Below, in pieces: positions 8,929 to 51,036 of a stretch of 64,000 nt of DNA. Below the pieces are notes generated by a model that worked only from the letters and a program-made list of their open reading frames with translations, did not search any database and was not told where the DNA came from. A program made the translations under genes and the position numbers. Position 1 is the first letter of the stretch. Each line of letters starts with the position of its first letter. Source of the DNA: an uncultured Pseudokineococcus sp. (GTDB taxonomy: Bacteria; Actinomycetota; Actinomycetes; Actinomycetales; Quadrisphaeraceae); the NCBI RefSeq assembly GCF_947495735.1, contig NZ_CANMAA010000002.1:62001-126000 (forward strand), in the 5' to 3' direction.

Positions 8929-9034
8929 GACCCCACCCTGCGGGCTCCGGCGCCGCGGGACCACCAGGACACGCACGACGGGGACCCCCGGCGGCGCGGG
9001 GACGGCCACCCGTCCGGGCGCCCGCGCCGCACCG

Positions 9035-9066
9035 GCACGGGCACCAGCACGGGCACCAGCACGGGT
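9035..9066. repeat. 12-bp short tandem repeat
   Basis: About two and a half copies of GGCACGGGCACCA-like sequence (period 12, core GCACCAGCACGG) lie between the divergent SDR and fabG-like genes, just upstream of the fabG-like -10 box. No function is evident. Confidence 0.5.
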
Positions 9067-9078
9067 CGGGGCCCCGGA

Positions 9079-9084
9079 TAGCGT
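9079..9084 (+). promoter_or_regulatory. -10 box upstream of the fabG-like gene
   Basis: TAGCGT lies about 76 bases before the ATG at 9161, implying a leader of roughly 70 nucleotides that includes the strong GGGAGAGG ribosome-binding site just before the start. Confidence 0.45.
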
Positions 9085-9160
9085 GCACGGCGGCGGTCGC
9101 GCGCCCCCGGGCGCCCGACCACCGCACACGCAGCGACCCGCGACGGAGCAGGGAGAGGTC

Positions 9161-13043: not shown

Positions 13044-14105
13044 TCAGCGGACGAGCACCTCGGCGGCCCCGCCGCGGCGGGGCACGAGCTCGCCGACGAC
13101 CGGCGCGCCGGGCACCTCGCCGACGACGAGCAGGCCGCCGGAGGTCTGGGCGTCGGCGAGCAGCAGCAGCTCCTCCTCCGCGCCCGCGGCGAGGTCGCAG
13201 CGCAGGTGGGGGCGCACCCAGTCGAGGTTGCGGCGCGTCCCGCCGGAGACGTAGCCGTCGCGCAGCGCCTCGCGGGCGCCGTCGAGGTAGGGCACGGCGG
13301 CGGCGTCGACCACGGCGTCGACGCCGCTGGCGCGCGCCATCTTGAACAGGTGGCCGAGCAGGCCGAAGCCGGTGACGTCGGTGGCCGCCCGCGCCCCGGC
13401 GGCGACCGCGGCGCGGGAGGCCTCCGCGTTGAGGGTCGTCATCGCGTCGACGGCCTGGGGGAAGACCTCGCCGGTCGCCTTGTGCCGGCTGTTGAGCACC
13501 CCGACGCCGAGGGGCTTGGTGAGCGAGAGCGGCAGCCCGGCCGCGCCCGCGTCGTTGCGCAGCAGCCGGTCGACCTCCACGAGGCCCGTCACGGCCATGC
13601 CGTACTTCGGCTCGGGGTCGTCCACGCTGTGGCCGCCGGCCACGTGGCACCCGGCCAGGCGGCCGACGTCCGCGCCGCCGCGCAGCACCTCGGCCGCGAG
13701 CTCCATCGGCAGGAGGTCGCGCGGCCAGCACAGCAGGTTCACGGCCACCAGCGGCGTCCCGCCCATGGCGTAGACGTCCGAGAGCGCGTTGGCGGCGGCG
13801 ATGCGGCCCCAGTCGTAGGGGTCGTCGACGACGGGCGTGAAGAAGTCCGCGGTCACCACGACGCCGTGCCCCGGGGTGGCCGGCGACGTGACGACCGCGG
13901 CGTCGTCGCCGTCGTCGAGCCCGACCAGGAGCGTCCCGGCGCCGTCCACGGCCTCCCCGCGGCCGGGCAGACCGGCGAGGACGGCCTCCAGCTCACCGGG
14001 CGGGATCTTGCAGGCGCACCCGCCCCCGTGGGCGTAGCTCGTCAGGCGTCCCGGCGCAGCCGCGCCGTTCCCCGTCGTGCCGTCCGGAGCCCGCGTCGTC
14101 GTCAC
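13044..14105 (-). CDS. selD: Selenide, water dikinase
   Basis: Makes selenophosphate from selenide and ATP, the selenium donor for selenocysteinyl-tRNA. The 353-residue length is normal. The N-terminal SYAHGGGCACKIPP is the signature loop, with Cys (not selenocysteine) at the catalytic position and the essential Lys two residues after the second Cys. VVTADFFTPVVDDPYDWGRIAAANALSDVYAMGG carries the metal-binding Asp and the ATP-site helix; TDVTGFGLLGH is the second metal site. The GTG at 14103-14105 opens MTTTRAP. It is divergent from the tRNA-Sec/selA/selB unit, with only about 95 bases between its start and the tRNA, completing the selenocysteine synthesis set. Confidence 0.96.
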   Translation of the reverse strand: MTTTRAPDGTTGNGAAAPGRLTSYAHGGGCACKIPPGELEAVLAGLPGRGEAVDGAGTLLVGLDDGDDAAVVTSPATPGHGVVVTADFFTPVVDDPYDWGRIAAANALSDVYAMGGTPLVAVNLLCWPRDLLPMELAAEVLRGGADVGRLAGCHVAGGHSVDDPEPKYGMAVTGLVEVDRLLRNDAGAAGLPLSLTKPLGVGVLNSRHKATGEVFPQAVDAMTTLNAEASRAAVAAGARAATDVTGFGLLGHLFKMARASGVDAVVDAAAVPYLDGAREALRDGYVSGGTRRNLDWVRPHLRCDLAAGAEEELLLLADAQTSGGLLVVGEVPGAPVVGELVPRRGGAAEVLVR

Positions 14106-14200
14106 GCGCGGGAGTCTGCCTCGTGGGTGCGGCGAGCGCCGCCCCGCCCGGGGCCCGGCGGGACCGCCGGCTCGCCATGGGGCATGCTGGCCGCGCGCGT

Positions 14201-14296
14201 GGAGGCGTCTGGGTTCCTGGTGGGCCCCGCGGTCTTCAACACCGACGAGGCCGAGCACCTCGGTCTGGCGGGTTCGATTCCCGTCCGCCTCCGCCA
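14201..14296 (+). tRNA. selC: tRNA-Sec (anticodon UCA)
   Basis: 96-nucleotide selenocysteine tRNA, the adaptor that reads UGA. The 5' GGAGGCG pairs with CGCCTCC before discriminator G and encoded CCA. The eighth acceptor position of the long Sec-type stem is a U-C mismatch. The D arm folds as GGGTTC/GGGCCC, the six-base stem typical of tRNA-Sec, with a five-base loop. The anticodon loop is CTTCAAC with TCA at 14236-14238. A long variable arm follows (CGAGG/CCTCG), then a T arm GCGGG-TTCGATT-CCCGT. Length, extended variable arm and location between selD and selA leave little doubt. Confidence 0.95.
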
Positions 14297-14388
14297 CGCG
14301 CCCTCCCGCAGCGGCCCCTGCTGGGACCGGGTCCCGACGGCGCCCTCGCGGGCCCCGCCCGCCCCGGCGCCGGCCGCGCACGGCGACC

Positions 14389-14394
14389 TACAGT
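14389..14394 (+). promoter_or_regulatory. -10 box of selA (leaderless)
   Basis: TACAGT lies six bases before the selA GTG, 93 bases past the tRNA-Sec 3' end. selAB therefore probably has its own promoter besides any read-through from the tRNA gene. Confidence 0.5.
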
Positions 14395-14400
14395 CGGGGC

Positions 14401-15777
14401 GTGAGCACCCCGGGCCGGTCCGACCAGCGCTCCCCCGCCCGCCGGGTGCCGAGGACCGACGCCGTCCTCGCCGCCGAGGAGCTGGCCGGCCCGCAGCAGC
14501 GGCTGGGGAGCCCCCTGGTCAAGGAGGCCGTCGTCGCCGCGCAGCAGCGCGTGCGCGCCGGCGAGGTGGCGCCCGAGGACGTCGTCGCCGAGGTGCTGGC
14601 CGCGCTGCCCGGCAGCGCGTCCAGCCTGCGCCCCGTCCTCAACGCCACCGGGGTCCTGCTCCACACGAACCTCGGACGGGCCGCGCTGTCCCGCGCCGCC
14701 GTCGAGGCGCTCGCCGCGGCCGCCGGCACGACCGACGTGGAGCTCGACCTCTCCACGGGCGCGCGCGGACGGCGGGGCCGCGACGCGATGGCGGCGCTCG
14801 CGGCGGCGGTGCCCGACGCCGGCGGCGTGCACGTCGTCAACAACGGCGCGGCGGCGCTCGCGCTGGCCGCCACCGCGCTGGCCGCCGGGCGCGAGGTCGT
14901 CGTGAGCCGGGGCGAGATGGTGGAGATCGGCGACGGCTTCCGGCTGCCCGACCTCATCACCTCGACCGGCGCCCGGCTGCGCGAGGTCGGCACCACCAAC
15001 CGGACGGCGCCGGCCGACTACGCCGACGCGCTCGGCCCCGAGACCGGCATGGTGCTCAAGGTCCACCCCTCCAACTTCGTCGTGCAGGGCTTCACCGCGG
15101 ACGTCGACGTCGCGGGCCTGTCCCGCGTCGTCGACGACGCCGCGGAGCGCCTCGGCCGGCGCGTGCCCGTCGTCGTCGACACCGGCTCGGGGCTGCTCGC
15201 CCCCCACCCGCTGCTGCCGGGCGAGCCCGACGCCGCGAGCGCCCTGCGCGCCGGCGCCGACCTCGTGACCTCCAGCGGCGACAAGCTGCTCGGCGGCCCG
15301 CAGGCCGGTCTGCTGCTGGGGCGCGCCGAGCTGGTCGGGCAGCTGCGCCGCCACCCGCTCGCCCGGGCGATGCGCGTGGACAAGCTCGTGCTCGCCGCGC
15401 TCGAGGCCACGCTGCGCGGGCCCGCCGCCCCGGTGCGCGCCGCCCTCGAGACCCCCGTCGAGCAGGTGCGCGCCCGCGCCGAGGCGGTGGCCGCCGCGCT
15501 GGTGGCCGAGGGCCACGACGCGCGGGTCGTCGCGAGCGACGCCGCCGTCGGCGGGGGCGGCGCCCCCGGGCTCGCCCTGCCGAGCGCCGCCGTGAGCCTG
15601 CCCGCGGGCGCCGCCGCGGCGCTGCGGGCGGGCTCACCGCCCGTCGTGGCGCGCGTGGAGGCGGGCCGGTGCCTGCTCGACCTGCGCTCCCTGGCCCCCG
15701 AGGACGACGACGCGCTGCGGGCCGCCGTCCTGCGCGCGCTGCGCGCGGGGGCGCCGTCCCCCGGCGCGGAGGGCTGA
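14401..15777 (+). CDS. selA: L-seryl-tRNA(Sec) selenium transferase
   Basis: PLP enzyme that converts Ser-tRNA(Sec) to Sec-tRNA(Sec) using selenophosphate. 458 residues, close to the family norm. The N-terminal tRNA-binding part (SPLVKEAVVAAQQRVRAG) is followed by LRPVLNATGVLLHTNLGRA, then VNNGAAALALAA, and the PLP lysine at residue 295 in SSGDKLLGGPQAG, the same number as in E. coli SelA. The GTG start is supported by the leaderless promoter and avoids the long in-frame extension through the tRNA gene. selB starts three bases after its stop. Confidence 0.96.
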   Translation: MSTPGRSDQRSPARRVPRTDAVLAAEELAGPQQRLGSPLVKEAVVAAQQRVRAGEVAPEDVVAEVLAALPGSASSLRPVLNATGVLLHTNLGRAALSRAAVEALAAAAGTTDVELDLSTGARGRRGRDAMAALAAAVPDAGGVHVVNNGAAALALAATALAAGREVVVSRGEMVEIGDGFRLPDLITSTGARLREVGTTNRTAPADYADALGPETGMVLKVHPSNFVVQGFTADVDVAGLSRVVDDAAERLGRRVPVVVDTGSGLLAPHPLLPGEPDAASALRAGADLVTSSGDKLLGGPQAGLLLGRAELVGQLRRHPLARAMRVDKLVLAALEATLRGPAAPVRAALETPVEQVRARAEAVAAALVAEGHDARVVASDAAVGGGGAPGLALPSAAVSLPAGAAAALRAGSPPVVARVEAGRCLLDLRSLAPEDDDALRAAVLRALRAGAPSPGAEG

Positions 15778-15780
15778 GCG

Positions 15781-17970
15781 GTGCACGTCCTCGCCACCGC
15801 CGGCCACGTCGACCACGGCAAGTCCGCTCTCGTCCGCGCGCTGACCGGTCGCGAGCCCGACCGCTGGGCGGAGGAGCAGCGCCGCGGCCTCACCCTCGAC
15901 CTCGGCTTCGCGTGGACCGACGTGGCCGACGGCGAGGGGGGCTCCGAGCGCGTCGCCCTCGTCGACGTCCCGGGCCACGAGCGCTTCGTGCCGACCATGC
16001 TGGCCGGCGTGGGCTCGGTGCCCGCCGTCCTGCTGGTGGTGGCCGCGGACGGCGGGTGGATGCCGCAGTCCCAGGAGCACCTGGACGCCCTGGACGCGCT
16101 CGGCGTCCGGGCCGGCCTCGTCGTCGTCACCCGGGCCGACCTCGTCGACGACGCCGCCGCCGCGGCCACCGCGCGGGACGTGGCGGAGCGCCTGCGCGGC
16201 ACCACGCTGGAGGGGTCGCCGTCGGTCGTCGTGAGCGCCCGCACCGGGGCGGGGATGGACGCGCTGCGGGCGGGCGTCGTCCGCCTGGTGCGCGGGCTGC
16301 CGCCGGCCGACCCGCGGGCGCCGGTGCGGCTGTGGCTCGACCGCTCCTTCTCCATCCGCGGCGCGGGCACGGTCGTCACCGGCACGCTCCCCGACGGCGC
16401 GGTGCGCGCCGGGGACGAGCTGGAGGCCTTCACGCCCGACGGCGAGCGCCGGTCGGCGCGCGTGCGCGGGCTGCAGTCGCTCGAGGAGCCGCAGCCGGAG
16501 GTCAGCGGCCCGGCGCGCGTCGCGGTGAACCTGCGCGGCGTCGCCGCCGAGGACGTGCCCCGGGGCAGCGCGCTCGTCGCGCCGGGCACGGCGCGCCTCA
16601 CCGACGAGGTGGACGTCGTCCTCACCGGCGCCGTGCGGGCGCGCGCGCTCGCCGACGACAGCGCCTCTGCGGCAGTCAGGTCCGCCGACCGCAGCGCTCT
16701 GCCCGGCGAGGCGCTGCTGCACGTCGGGGCGGCGCAGGTCAGCGCGCGCCCCCGCGCGCTGGGACGCGCAGGGCGCGAGGACGGCCCCGAGGTGGTCCGC
16801 CTGCGCCTGCGGACGCCGCTCCCCCTGCGCGTCGGCGACCTCGCCCTGCTGCGCGACCCGGGGCGCCGGGCCGTCCTGGCCGGCGTGCGGGTCCTCGACG
16901 TCGACCCGCCGGCGCTCGAGCGGCGCGGCGCCGCCCGCGCCCGGGCGCTCGACCTCGGCACCGCCGCGGACCTCGTGCTCGAGAGCGCTCCCACCGCAGC
17001 GCCTCTCGGTGAGGTCCGGGGACCGGTCGCCGCGGGCGCGGCGGGCGGCGCGAGCGCCGCGCGCCTGCTCGACGACGAGGTGCGCCGTCGCGGCGTGGTG
17101 GCCGCCGCGGCGCTCGTGAGCGCCGGCCATCCCACCGCCCTCGTGCGGGAGCGACTGCGCGGCAGCGGGACCGGCTCCTGGCTGCTCGACGCGACCCGCG
17201 CCCGCGCACTGCGCGAGGAGCTCGTCGCGCTCGTCGCCGAGGACGCCGTCCGGGACCCGCTCGCCGGCGGGACGCCGCTGGAGTCCGCCCGGCACCGGCT
17301 CGCCCTGCCGGACGCCGACGTCGTCCGGCACCTGGCCGCGGGGGTGCTCGCCGAGCGCGACGGGCGCCTGCGCGCCGTCCCGGCTCTTTCGGCGCCCCCG
17401 GCCCCGGCCCCCCCTCCGGCCCGGGTGCCCGGGCGTCCCGGCCCGGCCGCCGCACGCCCCGGCCCCGCCGCCGCACGCCCCGGCCCCGCCGCCGCACGCC
17501 CCGGCCCCGCCGCCGCACGCCCCGGCCCGGCGCCCGCGCGTCCGGGGGCTCCAGAGGCTCCGGCCCCGGCTGCTCGACCCGTCTCGCCCGCCACCGCCGC
17601 GGCACCCGGGCCCGTCGACCAGCTCCCGCCGCCGGTGGCCGCCGCGGTGCGCCAGGTGCTGGCGGACCTGCGGGCCGAGCCGTTCCGCGCGCCGGACGCC
17701 GAGCGCCTGCGCGGTCTCGGGCTCGGCCCGCGCGAGCTGGGCGCAGCGGTCCGCGTCGGCGCGCTGGTCCGCGTCGGCGACGTCGTGCTGGCGCCGGGCG
17801 CCCTGGAGGCCGCGGCTGCAGCCCTGGCACCCCTGCCGTCGCCGTTCACGACCAGCGAGGCGCGCCAGGCGTGGGGCACGAGCCGCCGCGTGGCCCTGCC
17901 CCTGCTCGAGGCGCTGGACGCGAGCGGGCGGACCGCGCGCCAGCCGGACGACCGGCGCCGCCTGCGCTGA
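15781..17970 (+). CDS. selB: Selenocysteine-specific translation elongation factor
   Basis: GTPase that delivers Sec-tRNA(Sec) to the ribosome at UGA codons followed by a SECIS hairpin. G1 is GHVDHGKS (8-15), G2 lies in RRGLTLDLGF, G3 is DVPGHE (62-67), and G4 reads TRAD (117-120) where NKxD is usual, a variant common in SelB. Beta-barrel domains follow, then C-terminal winged-helix domains for SECIS binding. At 729 residues it is over 100 longer than E. coli SelB, largely because of a Pro/Ala/Arg linker (about residues 538-600) containing four near-identical seven-residue units. That linker separates the winged helices from the elongation-factor body or splits the winged-helix region. GTG start. 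Confidence 0.95.
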   Translation: MHVLATAGHVDHGKSALVRALTGREPDRWAEEQRRGLTLDLGFAWTDVADGEGGSERVALVDVPGHERFVPTMLAGVGSVPAVLLVVAADGGWMPQSQEHLDALDALGVRAGLVVVTRADLVDDAAAAATARDVAERLRGTTLEGSPSVVVSARTGAGMDALRAGVVRLVRGLPPADPRAPVRLWLDRSFSIRGAGTVVTGTLPDGAVRAGDELEAFTPDGERRSARVRGLQSLEEPQPEVSGPARVAVNLRGVAAEDVPRGSALVAPGTARLTDEVDVVLTGAVRARALADDSASAAVRSADRSALPGEALLHVGAAQVSARPRALGRAGREDGPEVVRLRLRTPLPLRVGDLALLRDPGRRAVLAGVRVLDVDPPALERRGAARARALDLGTAADLVLESAPTAAPLGEVRGPVAAGAAGGASAARLLDDEVRRRGVVAAAALVSAGHPTALVRERLRGSGTGSWLLDATRARALREELVALVAEDAVRDPLAGGTPLESARHRLALPDADVVRHLAAGVLAERDGRLRAVPALSAPPAPAPPPARVPGRPGPAAARPGPAAARPGPAAARPGPAAARPGPAPARPGAPEAPAPAARPVSPATAAAPGPVDQLPPPVAAAVRQVLADLRAEPFRAPDAERLRGLGLGPRELGAAVRVGALVRVGDVVLAPGALEAAAAALAPLPSPFTTSEARQAWGTSRRVALPLLEALDASGRTARQPDDRRRLR
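17434..17542. repeat. 21-bp tandem repeat inside selB
   Basis: Four to five copies of a 21-base unit containing GCCGCACGCCCCGGCCC encode repeated PGPAAAR heptapeptides in the SelB linker. The middle copies are almost identical at the DNA level, so copy number may vary by slippage. Confidence 0.85.
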
Positions 17971-18004
17971 CGACCGCCGACCCCTCGGGCGCCCGCGGCG
18001 TCAG
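17967..18004. terminator. Imperfect hairpin over both stop codons
   Basis: GCTGACG-A-CCGC and GCGG-CGTCAGC pair with a one-base bulge. The structure spans the selB stop and the stop of the convergent permease gene and could terminate both. Confidence 0.4.
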
Positions 18005-19617
18005 CGCACGACGTCGCGGGCGCGGTCGCTGACGAGGTCGACGGCGAGGGTCAGGAGCACCAGCACCACGAGGGTGGTGGTCACCGCGGGCCAGTCGAAG
18101 ACCTGCAGCGAGGTGGCGAGCAGGGCGCCCAGCCCGCCGGCGCCGAGGAGGCCGACCATGACCGTGTCGCGGATCGCGACCTCCCAGCGGTAGAGGGCGT
18201 AGGCCAGCACCGGGCCCACCGCGCGGGGGGCCACCCCGTACAGCCAGGTGGCCGCCGGTCGGGCGCCGAGCGCCGTGAGCGCCTGCGCGGGACGAGGCTC
18301 CAGCTCCTCGAGGGCCTCGGCGGTCAGCCGGCCGAGCACCCCGAGGGTGTAGACGCCCAGCGCCAGGGCGCCCGGCAGGATCCCGGGCCGCAGGACGAAC
18401 AGGAGCACCAGCGCCCACACGGGCGGGGGCACGGCCCGCAGCAGGAGCAGGCCGAGCCGCACGACGACGCCGGCCGCCCACGGCACCGGCCGGGCACGGC
18501 GCGCCGGGCGGGCGGCCACCGGCGCGAGCAGCACCGCCCCGGCCGTCGCGACGGCGACGGCGATGACCGACATCTGCACGGTGTCGACCGCGGCGGCGCC
18601 CAGCGAGACCAGCAGGGAGCCGGACAGCTCGGGCGGCAGGGCCTCCGCGAGCAGGTAGGACAGCTGCTGCCGGGTGCGCTCGGCCAGCAGCGCGGCGGGG
18701 GTGACCGCCAGGTACCACCACGACCAGACGACGAGGGCGGCGGTCGTCAGCCCCGCTCCCGTGAGGACGAGGTCGCGGCGCGGCCGGTCGCCCGCGGCGG
18801 CGGGCGGGTCGGCGAGGCGGCGGCGCACCGCGCGCCCGGCCACGACCGCGGCCACGCACAGCAGCGTCAGGGCGTAGACGCAGCTCCACACCTGCTCCCA
18901 GCGCAGGGAGGTGAACGACAGCGACAGCTCGTACCCCAGCCCGCCGGCGCCGATGAGCCCCAGGACCACCGCGGAGCGCACGGCGCACTCCAGGCGGTAG
19001 GCGGAGTAGGCGAGCAGCCCCCCGGCGGCCGGCGGCAGCAGCCCGTAGAGGGCCGCGGCGCCCCGGCCGGCGCCCGCGGCCAGCAGCGCGTCGTGGGCGC
19101 CGCGCGGCACCTCGTCGAGCAGGTCGGCGAAGACCTTCGCCGTCACCGCCCCGTAGGGGATGCCGATGGCCAGCACCCCCACCCACGGGTCGAGCCCGAG
19201 GACGTTGAGCAGCAGCAGCCCCCACACCACCTCGTGCAGCCCCCGGGGCACGGCGACCACGCCCCGGGCCACCAGCCAGCCGCCCCGGCGCCGTCCCCAC
19301 GTCGTGCGGGCCAGGGCGACCGCGCCGACCGCGCCCAGGAGCACCGCGAGGGCGGTGCCGAGCGCGGCGTAGGCGACGGTCACCAGCGCGCCCCTCAGGA
19401 GCACCTGCCGGAAGTCGCCGGACAGGTCGGGCGCGAGCGCACCGGCGGCGAACCGGGAGAGCTGCCGGGCGCCGGCGGGGTTGAGCACCTCCCCGGAGAA
19501 GAGGCCGGCGCCGGCCAGGGACCACAGGACGACGACGGAGGCGCCGAGACCCCACGCCCACCGGGCGCGCGAGCGGCGCAGCACCGGCGTCGCGGGCCGG
19601 TCGACGACGGCGCTCAC
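18001..19617 (-). CDS. PhnE-like ABC permease, two permease domains fused (putative selenium oxyanion importer)
   Basis: 538-residue membrane protein made of two PhnE-type halves, where most relatives have one ~270-residue domain per chain. Each half has about six hydrophobic helices and its own cytoplasmic coupling loop: LLDEVPRGAHDALLAAGAG in the first half and ALEELEPRPAQALTALGAR in the second. Each is followed by a matching block, YRLECAVRSAVVLGLIGAGG and YRWEVAIRDTVMVGLLGAGG. It therefore forms the whole pore as one polypeptide. The GTG start overlaps the ATPase stop (GTGA). It is the third gene of a binding-protein, ATPase, permease operon convergent on selAB. The family imports phosphonate, phosphite or similar oxyanions; selenate or selenite is inferred from context. 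Confidence 0.88.
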   Translation of the reverse strand: MSAVVDRPATPVLRRSRARWAWGLGASVVVLWSLAGAGLFSGEVLNPAGARQLSRFAAGALAPDLSGDFRQVLLRGALVTVAYAALGTALAVLLGAVGAVALARTTWGRRRGGWLVARGVVAVPRGLHEVVWGLLLLNVLGLDPWVGVLAIGIPYGAVTAKVFADLLDEVPRGAHDALLAAGAGRGAAALYGLLPPAAGGLLAYSAYRLECAVRSAVVLGLIGAGGLGYELSLSFTSLRWEQVWSCVYALTLLCVAAVVAGRAVRRRLADPPAAAGDRPRRDLVLTGAGLTTAALVVWSWWYLAVTPAALLAERTRQQLSYLLAEALPPELSGSLLVSLGAAAVDTVQMSVIAVAVATAGAVLLAPVAARPARRARPVPWAAGVVVRLGLLLLRAVPPPVWALVLLFVLRPGILPGALALGVYTLGVLGRLTAEALEELEPRPAQALTALGARPAATWLYGVAPRAVGPVLAYALYRWEVAIRDTVMVGLLGAGGLGALLATSLQVFDWPAVTTTLVVLVLLTLAVDLVSDRARDVVR

Positions 19618-20360
19618 GCCTCACCCGCGTAGAAGGCCGTCAGGTCCGCGACGGACAGCGACCCCGCGGGGGCGTCCAGCGCCACCCGCCCGTCGACGAG
19701 GCCGACCACCCGGCTGCAGTGCCGCAGGGCCAGCGCCGGGTCGTGCAGCGAGGCGACCAGCGCCCCGCCCCGCTCGGCGGCGACGCCGGTGAGCAGCGCC
19801 ATCGTGCGGTCGGTCAGCACCGGGTCCAGCGCCGACGCCGGCTCGTCGGCGAGGACGAGCTCGGGGCGCTGCACCAGCACGCGAGCCACCGCGACCCGCT
19901 GCTGCTGGCCGCCGGACAGGCGCTCGGTGCGCTCGTGCAGCCGCGTCTCCAGGCCGACCTCGGCCAGCGCCGCGGCCGCCTCCGGCACCCCCTGCGGCCG
20001 CAGCAGCGACCAGGCCGACCGCCACGCCGGCCACGTCCCGAGCCGGCCGGCGTTGACGTTGTGGACCACGCGCAGGGGCCCGACGAGCTCCAGGTGCTGG
20101 TGGACGGTGCCCACCCGCGCGCGCAGGCGCCGCGCCCGTCCGGGAGGCAGGGCGGCGAGGTCGTGGCCGAGCACCTCGACCGACCCGGCGGTCGGCGCCA
20201 CCGAGCCGTTGGCGAGGCCGAGGAGGGTCGACTTGCCCGCGCCGGAGGGCCCGACCAGCCCGACACGCTCGCCGGCCCCGACCACGAGGTCGAGGCCGGC
20301 GAGCGCCCGGGTGCCGCCGAAGCGGACCTCGACGCCGGACAGCCGCAGGACCGCGGTCAG
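19614..20360 (-). CDS. PhnC-like ABC transporter ATPase (putative selenium oxyanion importer)
   Basis: ATP-binding subunit of the importer. Walker A is GPSGAGKST (near residue 35), the ABC signature is LSGGQQQRVAVAR, Walker B is LVLADEPASALDP, and the H-loop is SLHDPALAL; the layout is that of PhnC. No ATG, GTG or TTG codon precedes the first core strand (LRLSGVEVRFGG) in frame close to the preceding gene. The most sensible start is the CTG at 20358-20360, which overlaps the binding-protein stop as CTGA, mirroring the GTGA overlap at the other end. A GTG 17 codons or so further in would remove the first strand. I therefore place the start at CTG with caution. Confidence 0.87.
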   Translation of the reverse strand: MTAVLRLSGVEVRFGGTRALAGLDLVVGAGERVGLVGPSGAGKSTLLGLANGSVAPTAGSVEVLGHDLAALPPGRARRLRARVGTVHQHLELVGPLRVVHNVNAGRLGTWPAWRSAWSLLRPQGVPEAAAALAEVGLETRLHERTERLSGGQQQRVAVARVLVQRPELVLADEPASALDPVLTDRTMALLTGVAAERGGALVASLHDPALALRHCSRVVGLVDGRVALDAPAGSLSVADLTAFYAGEA

Positions 20361-21349
20361 CTGAGCACGCCCAGCTGCTCGCCGATCTGCTCGATCTGGT
20401 CGTGGTCGCCGGGCTCCGCGGCGACGAAGCTCCCGGCCCCGAAGAGCTCCAGCACCTGCGCGTCGTCGGGGTCGTCGGCCGACAGCCCCAGGAGGTAGTC
20501 CGTCATCCGGTCGGGCAGGTCCTCGCCCAGCCGCTCCACGGCCGCGGGCCCGAGGAGCCAGTGGTAGTCGTGGTAGGCCGGGGTGCGGGAGTGCAGCTGC
20601 ACGGCGGGGTCCACCTCCCCGGCCTCGGTGCGGGCGAGGCACACCTGCTCGTTGAGCACGCCCGCCTCGTAGGTGCCGGAGGCGACCAGCTGCAGGGTGG
20701 CGTCGTGCGAGCCGCTGAAGCCCGGGTCGCCGGGGAACCCGCGCGGGTCCACCCCCTGCTCGGCGAGGAAGTAGGCCGGCATGAGGAAGCCGGACGTGGA
20801 CGTCTGGCTCCCGTAGGTGAACCGCAGCCCGGCGAGCTCCGTGAGGTCCTCGGACGGCGCGAGCCCGGTGGCGGCGTTCACCACGAACACCGAGCGGAAG
20901 TCCTCGTCGATGTCCCGCTGGGCGATGACGCGGGCACCGGGGGTCTGGCGCCGGGCCTGGACGCCGGTGAGCCCGCCGAACCAGACCATGTCCAGGTCCC
21001 CGGTGCGGAAGAGGGAGACGGCGGCGCCGTAGTCGGTGACGGGGCGGTAGGTGACCTCGAGGCCCGTGGCCTCGGCCATCGACCCGGCGAGGACGCCGTA
21101 GAGGCGCTGCAGGACCTCGGGGTCCTGGTCGGGGATGGCGCCGATGGTCAGCGACCCGCCGGCGCCCCCGCCCGCGGACGACGACCCGGAGGGCTCGGCG
21201 GCCGGGGAGACCGGCGAGGGGCGACCGCTGCAGGCGGCGAGCCCGGCGGCCGCGGCGGCGGTGGCGGCCGCGCTCAGGAAGCCGCGCCGGCCGAGGTGGC
21301 GCGTCGGTGCTGCGGAGCCGCCCGACCGGACGGCGGAGGGGCGCCTCAT
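20357..21349 (-). CDS. Putative selenate/phosphonate-type ABC substrate-binding lipoprotein
   Basis: PhnD-family binding protein of 330 residues. A twin-arginine motif (GRRGFLSAAA) and lipobox (GLAACSG) indicate Tat export and lipid anchoring. The mature part opens LTIGAIPDQDPEVLQRLYG, then TYRPVTDYGAAVSLFRTGDLDMVWFGGLTGVQAR. These match, as I recall it, the profile named putative selenate ABC transporter binding protein (TIGR04553), a PhnD subgroup noted for sitting beside selenium genes. Here the neighbours are selA and selB. I chose the ATG at 21347-21349 because it begins the Tat n-region; an ATG 26 codons upstream would add an Arg-rich stretch. Confidence 0.85.
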   Translation of the reverse strand: MRRPSAVRSGGSAAPTRHLGRRGFLSAAATAAAAAGLAACSGRPSPVSPAAEPSGSSSAGGGAGGSLTIGAIPDQDPEVLQRLYGVLAGSMAEATGLEVTYRPVTDYGAAVSLFRTGDLDMVWFGGLTGVQARRQTPGARVIAQRDIDEDFRSVFVVNAATGLAPSEDLTELAGLRFTYGSQTSTSGFLMPAYFLAEQGVDPRGFPGDPGFSGSHDATLQLVASGTYEAGVLNEQVCLARTEAGEVDPAVQLHSRTPAYHDYHWLLGPAAVERLGEDLPDRMTDYLLGLSADDPDDAQVLELFGAGSFVAAEPGDHDQIEQIGEQLGVLS

Positions 21350-21456
21350 GTCGTGGCGCCGGAGTCGAGGACGAGGACGAGGACGGGCACGGTGGCCTCC
21401 TGGGACGGTGGGATCGGACGCCGCCATCGTGTCCTACGGCCCGGCCCCCGCCGCTC

Positions 21457-22722: not shown

Positions 22723-22731
22723 CCTCAGTTG
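22720..22731. promoter_or_regulatory. Operator 2 (CAAC-N4-GTTG) over the -35
   Basis: CAACCTCAGTTG is the second inverted repeat and overlaps the -35 TTGACG. A regulator bound to both would block both promoter elements. Confidence 0.55.
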
Positions 22732-22872
22732 CGCACCTGGGCTCGCCCCACGGGTGACCCGAAGGCCTCCGCCCTCCCGAGACCCGCTGACCGGCGGGCC
22801 GATCCGCGCTCCCCACGTCCACCGACCGGACCCGTGGTCCGCGCTGCGCGCCGCCTCGGCGATGATCGCCGC

Positions 22873-24069
22873 ATGGCTCGCGCGCTCCTGCTGGAGAACC
22901 TCCACCCCCAGGCCTCGACGATCCTCGCCGGCTCCGGGGTGACGCCCGTCGAGCACAGCGGGGCCATGGACGAGGACGAGCTGATCGCCGCGCTCCAGGG
23001 CGTCTCGGTGCTCGGCATCCGCTCCAAGACCACCGTGACCGAGCGGGTGCTCGAGGCCGTCCCCGACCTCCAGGCCATCGGCGCCTTCTGCATCGGCACC
23101 AACCAGATCGACCTCGACGCCGCGGCGGCCCGCGGCGTCGTCGTCTTCAACGCGCCCTTCTCCAACACGCGCAGCGTCGTCGAGCTCGCGATCGCGGAGA
23201 TCATCGCCCTCACGCGCCGCCTGACCGTCAAGGACTCCACGCTGCACGCCGGCGTGTGGGACAAGTCCGCCGAGGGCAGCCACGAGGTGCGCGGGCGCAC
23301 CCTCGGGATCGTCGGCTACGGCAACATCGGCAGCCAGCTGTCCGTGGTCGCCGAGGCGCTCGGCATGTCGGTCCTGTACTACGACACCGCCGAGAAGCTC
23401 GCCCTGGGCAACGCGCGCCGCTCCCCCGACCTGGAGAGCCTGCTGCGCCACAGCGACGTCGTGACGCTGCACGTGGACGGCCGCTCGGGCAACGCCGGCT
23501 TCTTCGGCCGCGAGCAGCTGGCCCAGATGCGCGAGGGCTCCGTCTTCCTCAACCTCTCGCGGGGCTTCGTCCTCGACCACGACGCGCTCGCCGACGCCAT
23601 CACGAGCGGCCACCTCTCCGGCGCGGCGATCGACGTCTTCCCCGAGGAGCCGAAGAAGCGCGGCGACGCCTTCGCCTCGCCGCTGCGCGGCCTGCCCAAC
23701 GTCATCCTCACGCCGCACATCGGCGGGTCCACCGAGGAGGCGCAGGAGGACATCGGCCGATTCGTCGCCACCAAGCTGCGCGACTACCTGCGCACCGGCA
23801 GCACCAGCCTGTCCGTCAACGTCCCCGCCGTCGCCCTCGAGCGGGTGCCCGGGTCGGCGCGGCTGGCGCACCTGCACCAGAACGTCCCCGGCGTCCTCGC
23901 CACCGTGAACCGGGTGCTCGCCGAGCACGGGGTCAACGTCGACGCGCAGCACCTGACGACCCGCGGCTCCTTCGGCTACTCCGTCACCGACGTCTCCGAG
24001 GGCGTGGGGACGGAGGTCGTCGAGGCGCTGCGTGCGATGCCCGAGACGGTGCGCCTGCTCGTCGTGTGA
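22873..24069 (+). CDS. serA: D-3-phosphoglycerate dehydrogenase
   Basis: First enzyme of serine synthesis, oxidising 3-phosphoglycerate with NAD. The 398-residue, E. coli-like form has the catalytic domain split around a Rossmann domain: GIVGYGNIGSQL near residue 145 binds NAD, FLNLSRGFVLDHDAL holds the catalytic Arg, and TPHIGGSTEEAQ holds the active-site His. The C-terminal ACT domain (HLHQNVPGVLATVNRVLAEHG) gives feedback inhibition by serine. It is the short type without the extra intervening domain found in mycobacterial SerA. The ATG at 22873 opens MARALLLENL. Serine is also the precursor loaded on tRNA-Sec, but no regulatory link is visible. Confidence 0.94.
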   Translation: MARALLLENLHPQASTILAGSGVTPVEHSGAMDEDELIAALQGVSVLGIRSKTTVTERVLEAVPDLQAIGAFCIGTNQIDLDAAAARGVVVFNAPFSNTRSVVELAIAEIIALTRRLTVKDSTLHAGVWDKSAEGSHEVRGRTLGIVGYGNIGSQLSVVAEALGMSVLYYDTAEKLALGNARRSPDLESLLRHSDVVTLHVDGRSGNAGFFGREQLAQMREGSVFLNLSRGFVLDHDALADAITSGHLSGAAIDVFPEEPKKRGDAFASPLRGLPNVILTPHIGGSTEEAQEDIGRFVATKLRDYLRTGSTSLSVNVPAVALERVPGSARLAHLHQNVPGVLATVNRVLAEHGVNVDAQHLTTRGSFGYSVTDVSEGVGTEVVEALRAMPETVRLLVV

Positions 24070-48036: not shown

Positions 48037-50922
<2,886 letters not shown>

Positions 50923-51036
50923 GGGTCCTTCTTCCATCGCTGGGGCTCGTCGGTCGGGGCTCCTCGGGGGAGCCCGGGTGCATCGAGTTCTGGGAGGGCT
51001 GCGGGGCCTGGTGGGGGCGCCGCGCTTCCGTGGCGG

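Follow-up and report, generated by a model that had tools for sequence, protein, structure and literature searches.

Introduction

What is carried by a transporter that resembles phosphonate importers and is encoded end to end with the genes for selenocysteine (Sec) synthesis? The question is raised by an ATP-binding cassette (ABC) operon at 18001-21349 of a 64,000-nucleotide stretch of DNA from an uncultured Pseudokineococcus sp. (the window, by which we mean the whole stretch analysed). Two reviews, from 2022 and 2026, state that a specific, high-affinity transport system for selenium has yet to be identified in prokaryotes (PMC9312934, PMC13188914). On the comparisons presented here, we believe that the operon probably encodes a high-affinity ABC importer of an inorganic selenium oxyanion, with selenate included as a sub-case. 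The proposed selenium link is well supported, resting on the profile match of the binding protein, its place in a family tree, the co-occurrence of the family with selenium genes and some physical linkage.

Results and Discussion

The operon comprises three genes:

18001 to 19617, minus strand: fused permease with two PhnE-like halves in one 538-amino-acid chain (TIGR01097, 311 bits, cut-off 216.7, matched in two stretches)
19614 to 20360, minus strand: PhnC-like ABC ATPase, with an uncertain start near 20360 (ABC_tran; TIGR02315, 198 bits, below the cut-off of 266)
20357 to 21349, minus strand: substrate-binding lipoprotein LGRRGFLSAAATAAAAAGLAAC (TIGR04553, 272 bits, cut-off 250)

The GTG start of the permease gene overlaps the ATPase stop by four bases, and BPD_transp_1 also matched the permease in two stretches. 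Judged by eye, the binding protein begins with a twin-arginine-like signal and a lipobox, and it carries the motifs TDYGAAV and WFGGLTGVQAR. The selB and permease genes converge, their ends 30 bases apart, with no terminator found between them by a simple scan. Profiles confirmed the initial annotation in its description of an operon convergent on selB that encodes a PhnD-type lipoprotein, a PhnC-type ATPase and a permease with both PhnE halves.

Family membership and the fused permease

Which family does the binding protein belong to? Its score of about 272 bits exceeds the cut-off of 250 for TIGR04553, which NCBIfam names as putative selenate, and the association with that profile made in the initial annotation was therefore right. 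It also passes the broad phosphate/phosphite/phosphonate subfamily TIGR01098 (125.8 bits, cut-off 112), as do both PhnD1 chains of known structure discussed below (7S6G and 5LQ5), and it fails PhnD, TIGR03431, with 86.5 bits against a cut-off of 261. Because it passes TIGR04553, the window protein is, by profile, a new member of a family for which a selenium role was already predicted in NCBIfam.

A tree built in quick mode, without bootstrap, from 60 of 112 binding proteins and four PDB chains places the over-cut-off members in one clade of 50 rows (Shimodaira-Hasegawa-like approximate likelihood ratio test, SH-aLRT, 100), apart from the PtxB phosphite proteins. The window protein lies inside this clade, grouped with Pseudokineococcus and Kineococcus, and does not fall with the PtxB chains 5O2J and 5LV1, which form a separate clade. 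Matches below the cut-off were rejected as family members because two of them, from genomes G388 and G540, group with PtxB (genomes carry G numbers here, and loci L numbers).

The initial annotation singled out the fused permease as a special feature of this operon; it is instead the rule of the family. A permease open reading frame (ORF) was obtained at 93 of 112 loci, with starts set mechanically, and reached at least 500 amino acids in 80 of 81 cases in the family set and in none of 12 among the weaker relatives (269-455 amino acids). Therefore the fused permease marks the whole family, within which one locus, L034, has two adjacent permease halves. The 81 permeases, like the 100 relatives used below for residue counts, combine over-cut-off matches with the best 80 of 547 loci, the latter not each scored against the profile, and because the best 80 of the 547 relatives were kept the set leans to close kin of the window. 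A few proteins are double-counted in both sets, G259 being apparently the same genome as G100 (identical coordinates and scores).

Co-occurrence with selenium genes

Does the family keep company with selenium genes beyond the window? In a sample of 146 genomes from the cyanobacterial phylum, 14 had a protein passing TIGR04553, 16 had MnmH (2-selenouridine synthase) and 22 had SelD, and all 14 importer genomes carried both SelD and MnmH. The association of importer and MnmH gives a Fisher p of about 1e-17 with kinship ignored. The 46 genomes that hold only sub-cut-off relatives have MnmH in a single case and SelD in seven (p about 9e-13 for MnmH, kinship again ignored). Five small genomes (1.7-2.6 Mb) are among the 14; their binding proteins share one clade with 7S6G and 5LQ5 (SH-aLRT 100), and their MnmH proteins score 327-370 bits. 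The occurrence of ybbB (mnmH) in cyanobacteria, and of fused SelD in Prochlorococcus and Synechococcus, was noted in 2005 (PMC1273633). One of the five MnmH copies, that of G422 (L143), contains a single in-frame TGA; SelA is absent from that genome, and the TGA would be a sequencing error or the mark of a broken gene.

A second collection, the locus set, was drawn from the loci themselves: 50 of the best 80 were taken (the 30 set aside were Geodermatophilaceae, plus a single record labelled Bacillus), and 49 genomes were searched, L118 excepted. SelD was over cut-off in 45 of the 49, MnmH in 30 of 31 cyanobacteria and SelA in 17 of the 18 others, so that at least one of the three was found in 48 of 49 genomes. 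A profile search found selA in none of the 31 cyanobacterial importer genomes of this set, selB not being searched. The locus set shares G253, G262 and G276 with the 146-genome sample.

Actinobacterial genomes were sampled twice, with the window's genome common to both samples. The importer was found in six of 246 genomes sampled across the phylum, with SelD and SelA in all six, and in three of 295 sampled from the class, with SelD in all three. A completeness of at least 95% was requested for the 146- and 295-genome samples, no completeness being shown for the cyanobacteria. Absences in these counts may be misses, because candidates were limited and expectation-value (E) limits strict: MnmH searches scored at most 14 candidates per genome in the 146-genome sample and at most 36 in the locus set, and the strict E limits applied to SelD and MnmH in the 146 genomes, to the class-sample searches and to MnmH and SelA in the locus set.

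Linkage to selenocysteine genes

How closely is the importer tied to Sec genes? In the window it adjoins all four components of the bacterial Sec system (selA, selB, selC and selD), found by profile, ARAGORN and Rfam exactly where the initial annotation had placed them together:

13044 to 14105, minus strand: selD, selenide water dikinase, Cys form GGGCACK (TIGR00476, 371 bits, cut-off 125)
14201 to 14296, plus strand: tRNA-Sec, anticodon TCA (ARAGORN; Rfam RF01852, 66.1 bits)
14401 to 15777, plus strand: selA, L-seryl-tRNA(Sec) selenium transferase, approximate start (TIGR00474, 408 bits, cut-off 268)
15781 to 17970, plus strand: selB, Sec-specific elongation factor (TIGR00475, 247 bits, cut-off 242; SelB-wing_3)

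The selD start, judged by eye, is likely a GTG near 14105, and three bases lie between the selA stop and selB. A gene elsewhere in the genome (G000:C7, about 101988; L187) probably makes use of the Sec set: it encodes an FdnG-like formate dehydrogenase and contains an in-frame TGA within the motif NQARI-U-HS, which we take to be the Sec position of Escherichia coli FdnG, with a hairpin 3' of the TGA (a prediction alone, made without a shuffled control). Its product is likely a selenoprotein of the window's own genome. Two further observations concern the window: selB contains a 21-base tandem repeat of 4.4 copies (17437-17528) encoding a Pro/Ala-rich linker (PGPAAAR), and a class II (B12-dependent) ribonucleotide reductase was matched by Pfam at 48037-50937 on the minus strand.

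The arrangement of genes in the window is seen again in Pseudokineococcus (L043) and in a member of another family of the class (L175/G475), whose binding protein is 54% identical and whose order of importer, convergent selB-selA, tRNA-Sec and selD is that of the window. Elsewhere, selD is divergent beside the importer in L118 and L119 (Moorena, with fused SelD) and in L101 (Thermoflexales), and a SelD fusion and mnmH lie within 7 kb of it in L099 (Lyngbya). A scan that counted ATPase matches of at least 110 bits and SelB matches of at least 150 bits found a sel gene in the examined stretch at five of the best 80 of 547 loci, several stretches ending early at contig ends. Earlier work lists an ABC transporter ATPase as one of the neighbours of orphan selD genes in several phyla (PMC5029168).

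A second PhnD-like group, below the TIGR04553 cut-off, has a shorter permease and Gly at the position of PhnD1 Asp203 (L037, L041, L042, L177, L179, L180). In this weaker clade selD lies within about 13 kb at 6 of 12 loci fetched, a rate that is biased because three of them (L177, L179 and L180) were chosen after SelD had been seen nearby; a LysR gene adjoins several. This group is possibly a second selenium importer lineage. At L177, selB, selA, selD and the weaker PhnD-type importer lie within 15 kb, and a tRNA-Sec (9034-9127, G651:C1; Rfam, 66.8 bits) has the anticodon ACA, which would read the Cys codon UGU. Sec tRNAs for sense codons have been reported before.

PhnD1 relatives and the ligand site

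Which selenium compound would such a protein bind? The nearest solved structures are those of picocyanobacterial PhnD1, from Synechococcus MITS9220 (7S6G, E 7e-82) and Prochlorococcus MIT9301 (5LQ5, 9e-65), whose TIGR04553 scores of 337 and 301 bits, respectively, both exceed the cut-off. A model of the window protein (mean predicted local distance difference test score, pLDDT, 91) had PhnD1 5LQ8, 5LQ5 and 7S6G as its top structural matches in Foldseek; VIA-align gave Z scores of 36.0, 35.9 and 35.3, respectively, with root-mean-square deviations (rmsd) of 2.5-2.6 over 267-270 residues, and for PtxB 5O2J a Z of 28.4 with an rmsd of 2.8 over 252 residues. The ligand residues of 7S6G named in PMC10284923 (D11, Y44, T65, STS124-126, H156, N174, D203 and Y204) are all present in the window protein, as D100, Y133, T154, STS210-212, H241, N259, D287 and Y288 (numbering of ORF 20357-21427), S123 being Thr. 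In PhnD1 the oxyanion is held by the STS motif, Tyr, His and Asp203, with Tyr as a cap (PMC5700983, PMC10284923), and the equivalent Asp205 has been read as a sign of mono-anionic phosphite binding (PMC5700983). Each listed residue is kept in 95 to 99 of the 100 relatives.

At the D203 position, Asp occurs in 97 of the 100 relatives, Asn in two and a gap in one. The aspartate is not absolute, since the two Asn cases (L151 and L152) are picocyanobacterial members; P. stutzeri PtxB has Gln there, and the six SelD-linked weaker relatives have Gly. At pH 7-8 selenite is largely HSeO3-, a pyramidal mono-anion with three oxygens, shaped like hydrogen phosphite; selenate is a bare dianion, unprotonated at neutral pH. 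Because an aspartate that can accept a hydrogen bond is conserved at this position, we favour selenite over selenate as the probable substrate, by roughly two to one in our estimation, given that selenium is what is carried.

Import of selenate, a fully ionised tetrahedral dianion that would have to be captured in competition with sulfate, is the sub-case of the selenium interpretation that the NCBIfam name suggests. Among the oxidised forms of selenium, selenate is a common one, a tetrahedral phosphate sits in the 7S6G site, and the arsenate-binding relative ArrX was solved with sulfate and arsenate. We nonetheless consider it unlikely: the acceptor Asp203, so widely kept, is suited to a protonated ligand, and a published PhnD1 screen that included sulfur sources gave shifts with phosphorus sources alone (PMC10284923). 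Co-occurrence, for its part, indicates selenium use and not a chemical form, so that the substrate might be a different compound of selenium or sulfur, such as a seleno-organic one, in place of an inorganic oxyanion. This strikes us as very improbable, as the residues with which PhnD1 surrounds a small oxyanion (STS, His, Asp and capping Tyr) are kept in 95-99 of the 100 relatives, and most of the larger phosphorus compounds screened with one Synechococcus PhnD1 failed (PMC10284923).

Evidence against a selenium role

A number of observations weigh against a selenium importer, and the first of these concern gene content. The gene order of the window is conserved in the loci described above, as the initial annotation had proposed to check, but linkage is uncommon: in stretches reaching at most some 10 kb to either side, it was found in two of eight unselected actinobacterial genomes over the cut-off (G475 and the window's own) and in none of 14 cyanobacterial ones. 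Two MnmH genomes of the 146-genome sample lack the importer, G388 (whose match falls with PtxB) and G430, and G290, a draft in which that contig has 3.8-fold coverage, has the importer yet no SelD, SelA or MnmH over cut-off. In Actinobacteria, SelD is present in 162 of the 246 genomes of the phylum sample and in 80 of the 295 of the class sample. The finding of SelD in six of six importer genomes of the phylum sample (p 0.08) therefore proves little, and we dropped phylum-wide actinobacterial co-occurrence as proof. Of the 80 class-sample genomes with SelD, only three contain the importer; the window's order contributes 13 other SelD genomes to that sample, and the importer is absent from all of them. 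Nor does any match reach the TIGR04553 cut-off in E. coli or M. jannaschii, two control genomes with SelD over cut-off. Since SelD is common without it, selenium use in Actinobacteria does not require the importer.

Picocyanobacterial SelD, moreover, is a divergent fusion whose NCBI name is 'not SelD'. In three genomes (G390, G397 and G420; loci L182, L183 and L184) these oxidoreductase-SelD fusions pass TIGR00476, with 135-149 bits, and also TIGR04369, 'fusion_not_SelD', with 940-1020 bits. They keep a C-x-x-K motif, and MnmH is present; the 'not SelD' name may be wrong, to judge from these features.

The remaining objections are biochemical. In the literature searched we met no test of any selenium compound on a member of the family, and no account of selenium binding or uptake by one. 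Phosphite is bound with affinities of 0.67-4.3 uM in Synechococcus, and 0.05-0.12 uM is quoted for Prochlorococcus; the corresponding values for phosphate are 7-88 uM and 55-182 uM, and phosphate co-purified with 7S6G (PMC10284923). One study cited there found the transporter induced by phosphorus-deficient medium in Synechococcus WH8102, and others cited there found no induction under phosphorus limitation. These reported phosphite affinities are real and could be physiological.

Could the operon, then, be a phosphite or phosphate importer whose sel neighbourhood is incidental? Phosphite is the best ligand of the closest relatives that have been characterised (PMC5700983, PMC10284923), the top structural matches are complexes with phosphite, phosphate and methylphosphonate, the ligand residues are the same and TIGR01098 is passed. 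We regard this as improbable all the same. The family tracks MnmH (14 of 14 genomes, against 1 of 46 with weaker relatives), and the proven PtxB proteins lie in a separate clade. PhnD1 was present in all 97 picocyanobacterial genomes surveyed in PMC10284923, yet the two strains grown there cannot use phosphite, ptxD, phnY/phnZ and carbon-phosphorus (C-P) lyase are missing from the four strains studied, and the transporter's presence is called paradoxical; the in vivo function of PhnDCE is called unknown in PMC5700983. In the window itself, the gene upstream of the importer (22729-24069), considered as a phosphite dehydrogenase, was rejected as such: its product scores 590 bits as a phosphoglycerate dehydrogenase (cut-off 404) and includes an ACT domain.

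Proposed function and mechanism

In the proposed mechanism, the lipid-anchored, two-lobed binding protein would capture a selenium oxyanion, of which hydrogen selenite (HSeO3-) is the likeliest, and hand it to the double permease, transport being driven by the PhnC-type ATPase. Intracellular reduction to selenide, a step we infer, would feed SelD, which would make the selenophosphate that SelA uses to form Sec on tRNA-Sec; SelB would then deliver Sec at UGA codons, such as that of the FdnG-like formate dehydrogenase. The transporter family would serve both uses of selenium: Sec in Actinomycetota, Chloroflexota and one Gemmatimonadota genome, and 2-selenouridine in Cyanobacteria.

The initial annotation had seen in the window a self-contained selenium supply unit. 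The selenium link stands, on profile, tree, co-occurrence and linkage; a unit dedicated to Sec does not, given linkage at five of 80 loci and cyanobacteria without selA. Since cyanobacteria carry the importer with selD and mnmH and without selA, the family is not Sec-only, and the occurrence of the operon in such genomes counts against an exclusive Sec role and not against a selenium role.

By extension, and here we lean towards the idea with less assurance than for the window's operon, picocyanobacterial PhnD1CE, long classed as importing phosphonate, phosphite or phosphate, would be an importer of a selenium oxyanion, probably selenite, that supplies tRNA 2-selenouridine, and together with the actinobacterial operon it would constitute a dedicated prokaryotic selenium uptake system. 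A general selenium importer family that includes PhnD1CE fits most of the co-occurrence data. If it is one, the phosphite affinity measured in vitro would be mimicry, hydrogen phosphite being close to hydrogen selenite in shape and charge. Words beginning with 'selen' are absent from the main texts of PMC10284923 and PMC5700983, and among titles and abstract openings the literature search found none joining PhnD1 with selenium.

What is new here is the family's company, namely the inclusion of picocyanobacterial PhnD1 in TIGR04553 and the tracking of selenium genes. Two puzzles are thereby joined, the missing selenium transporter and a PhnDCE of unexplained role, in one family that tracks selenium use across phyla. 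If the wider interpretation is true, a transporter found throughout the commonest phototrophs of the surface ocean was assigned to the wrong element, and it is testable on proteins already purified by others.

Comparison with known systems

Among known systems, E. coli PhnD/PhnC/PhnE resembles the window's operon in fold and component types; it differs in that the window's binding protein reaches 86.5 of the 261 bits required and about 22% identity, and the ATPase falls under the PhnC cut-off. PtxB (5O2J, 5LV1, 5JVB) shares the fold and the STS, His and Tyr ligands, but lies in a separate clade (5O2J, 5LV1), has Gln at the Asp203 position in 5O2J, and is accompanied by single-length permeases in the two loci examined. 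YedE is, like the present operon, a candidate selenium transporter predicted from gene context in selenium users; it is a ten-helix membrane protein, unrelated to ABC systems and proposed as a transporter or exporter (PMC5322559).

From the TIGR04553 family the window departs in nothing; the family name says selenate, and the site suggests selenite. The literature searched held no mention of the TIGR04553 accession, and 'selenate ABC transporter' occurs in three papers, among them PMC9426549 and PMC13077682, where it is an annotation, the latter adding a guess at selenite export. Closest of all is picocyanobacterial PhnD1 (7S6G, 5LQ5, 5LQ8), with 45-53% identity, the same ligand residues, a fused permease and a TIGR04553 match, and with MnmH and a SelD-like fusion in the five genomes sampled. 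It differs in having been published as a phosphite-binding or constitutive phosphate transporter, and in keeping company with selenouridine genes and not Sec genes.

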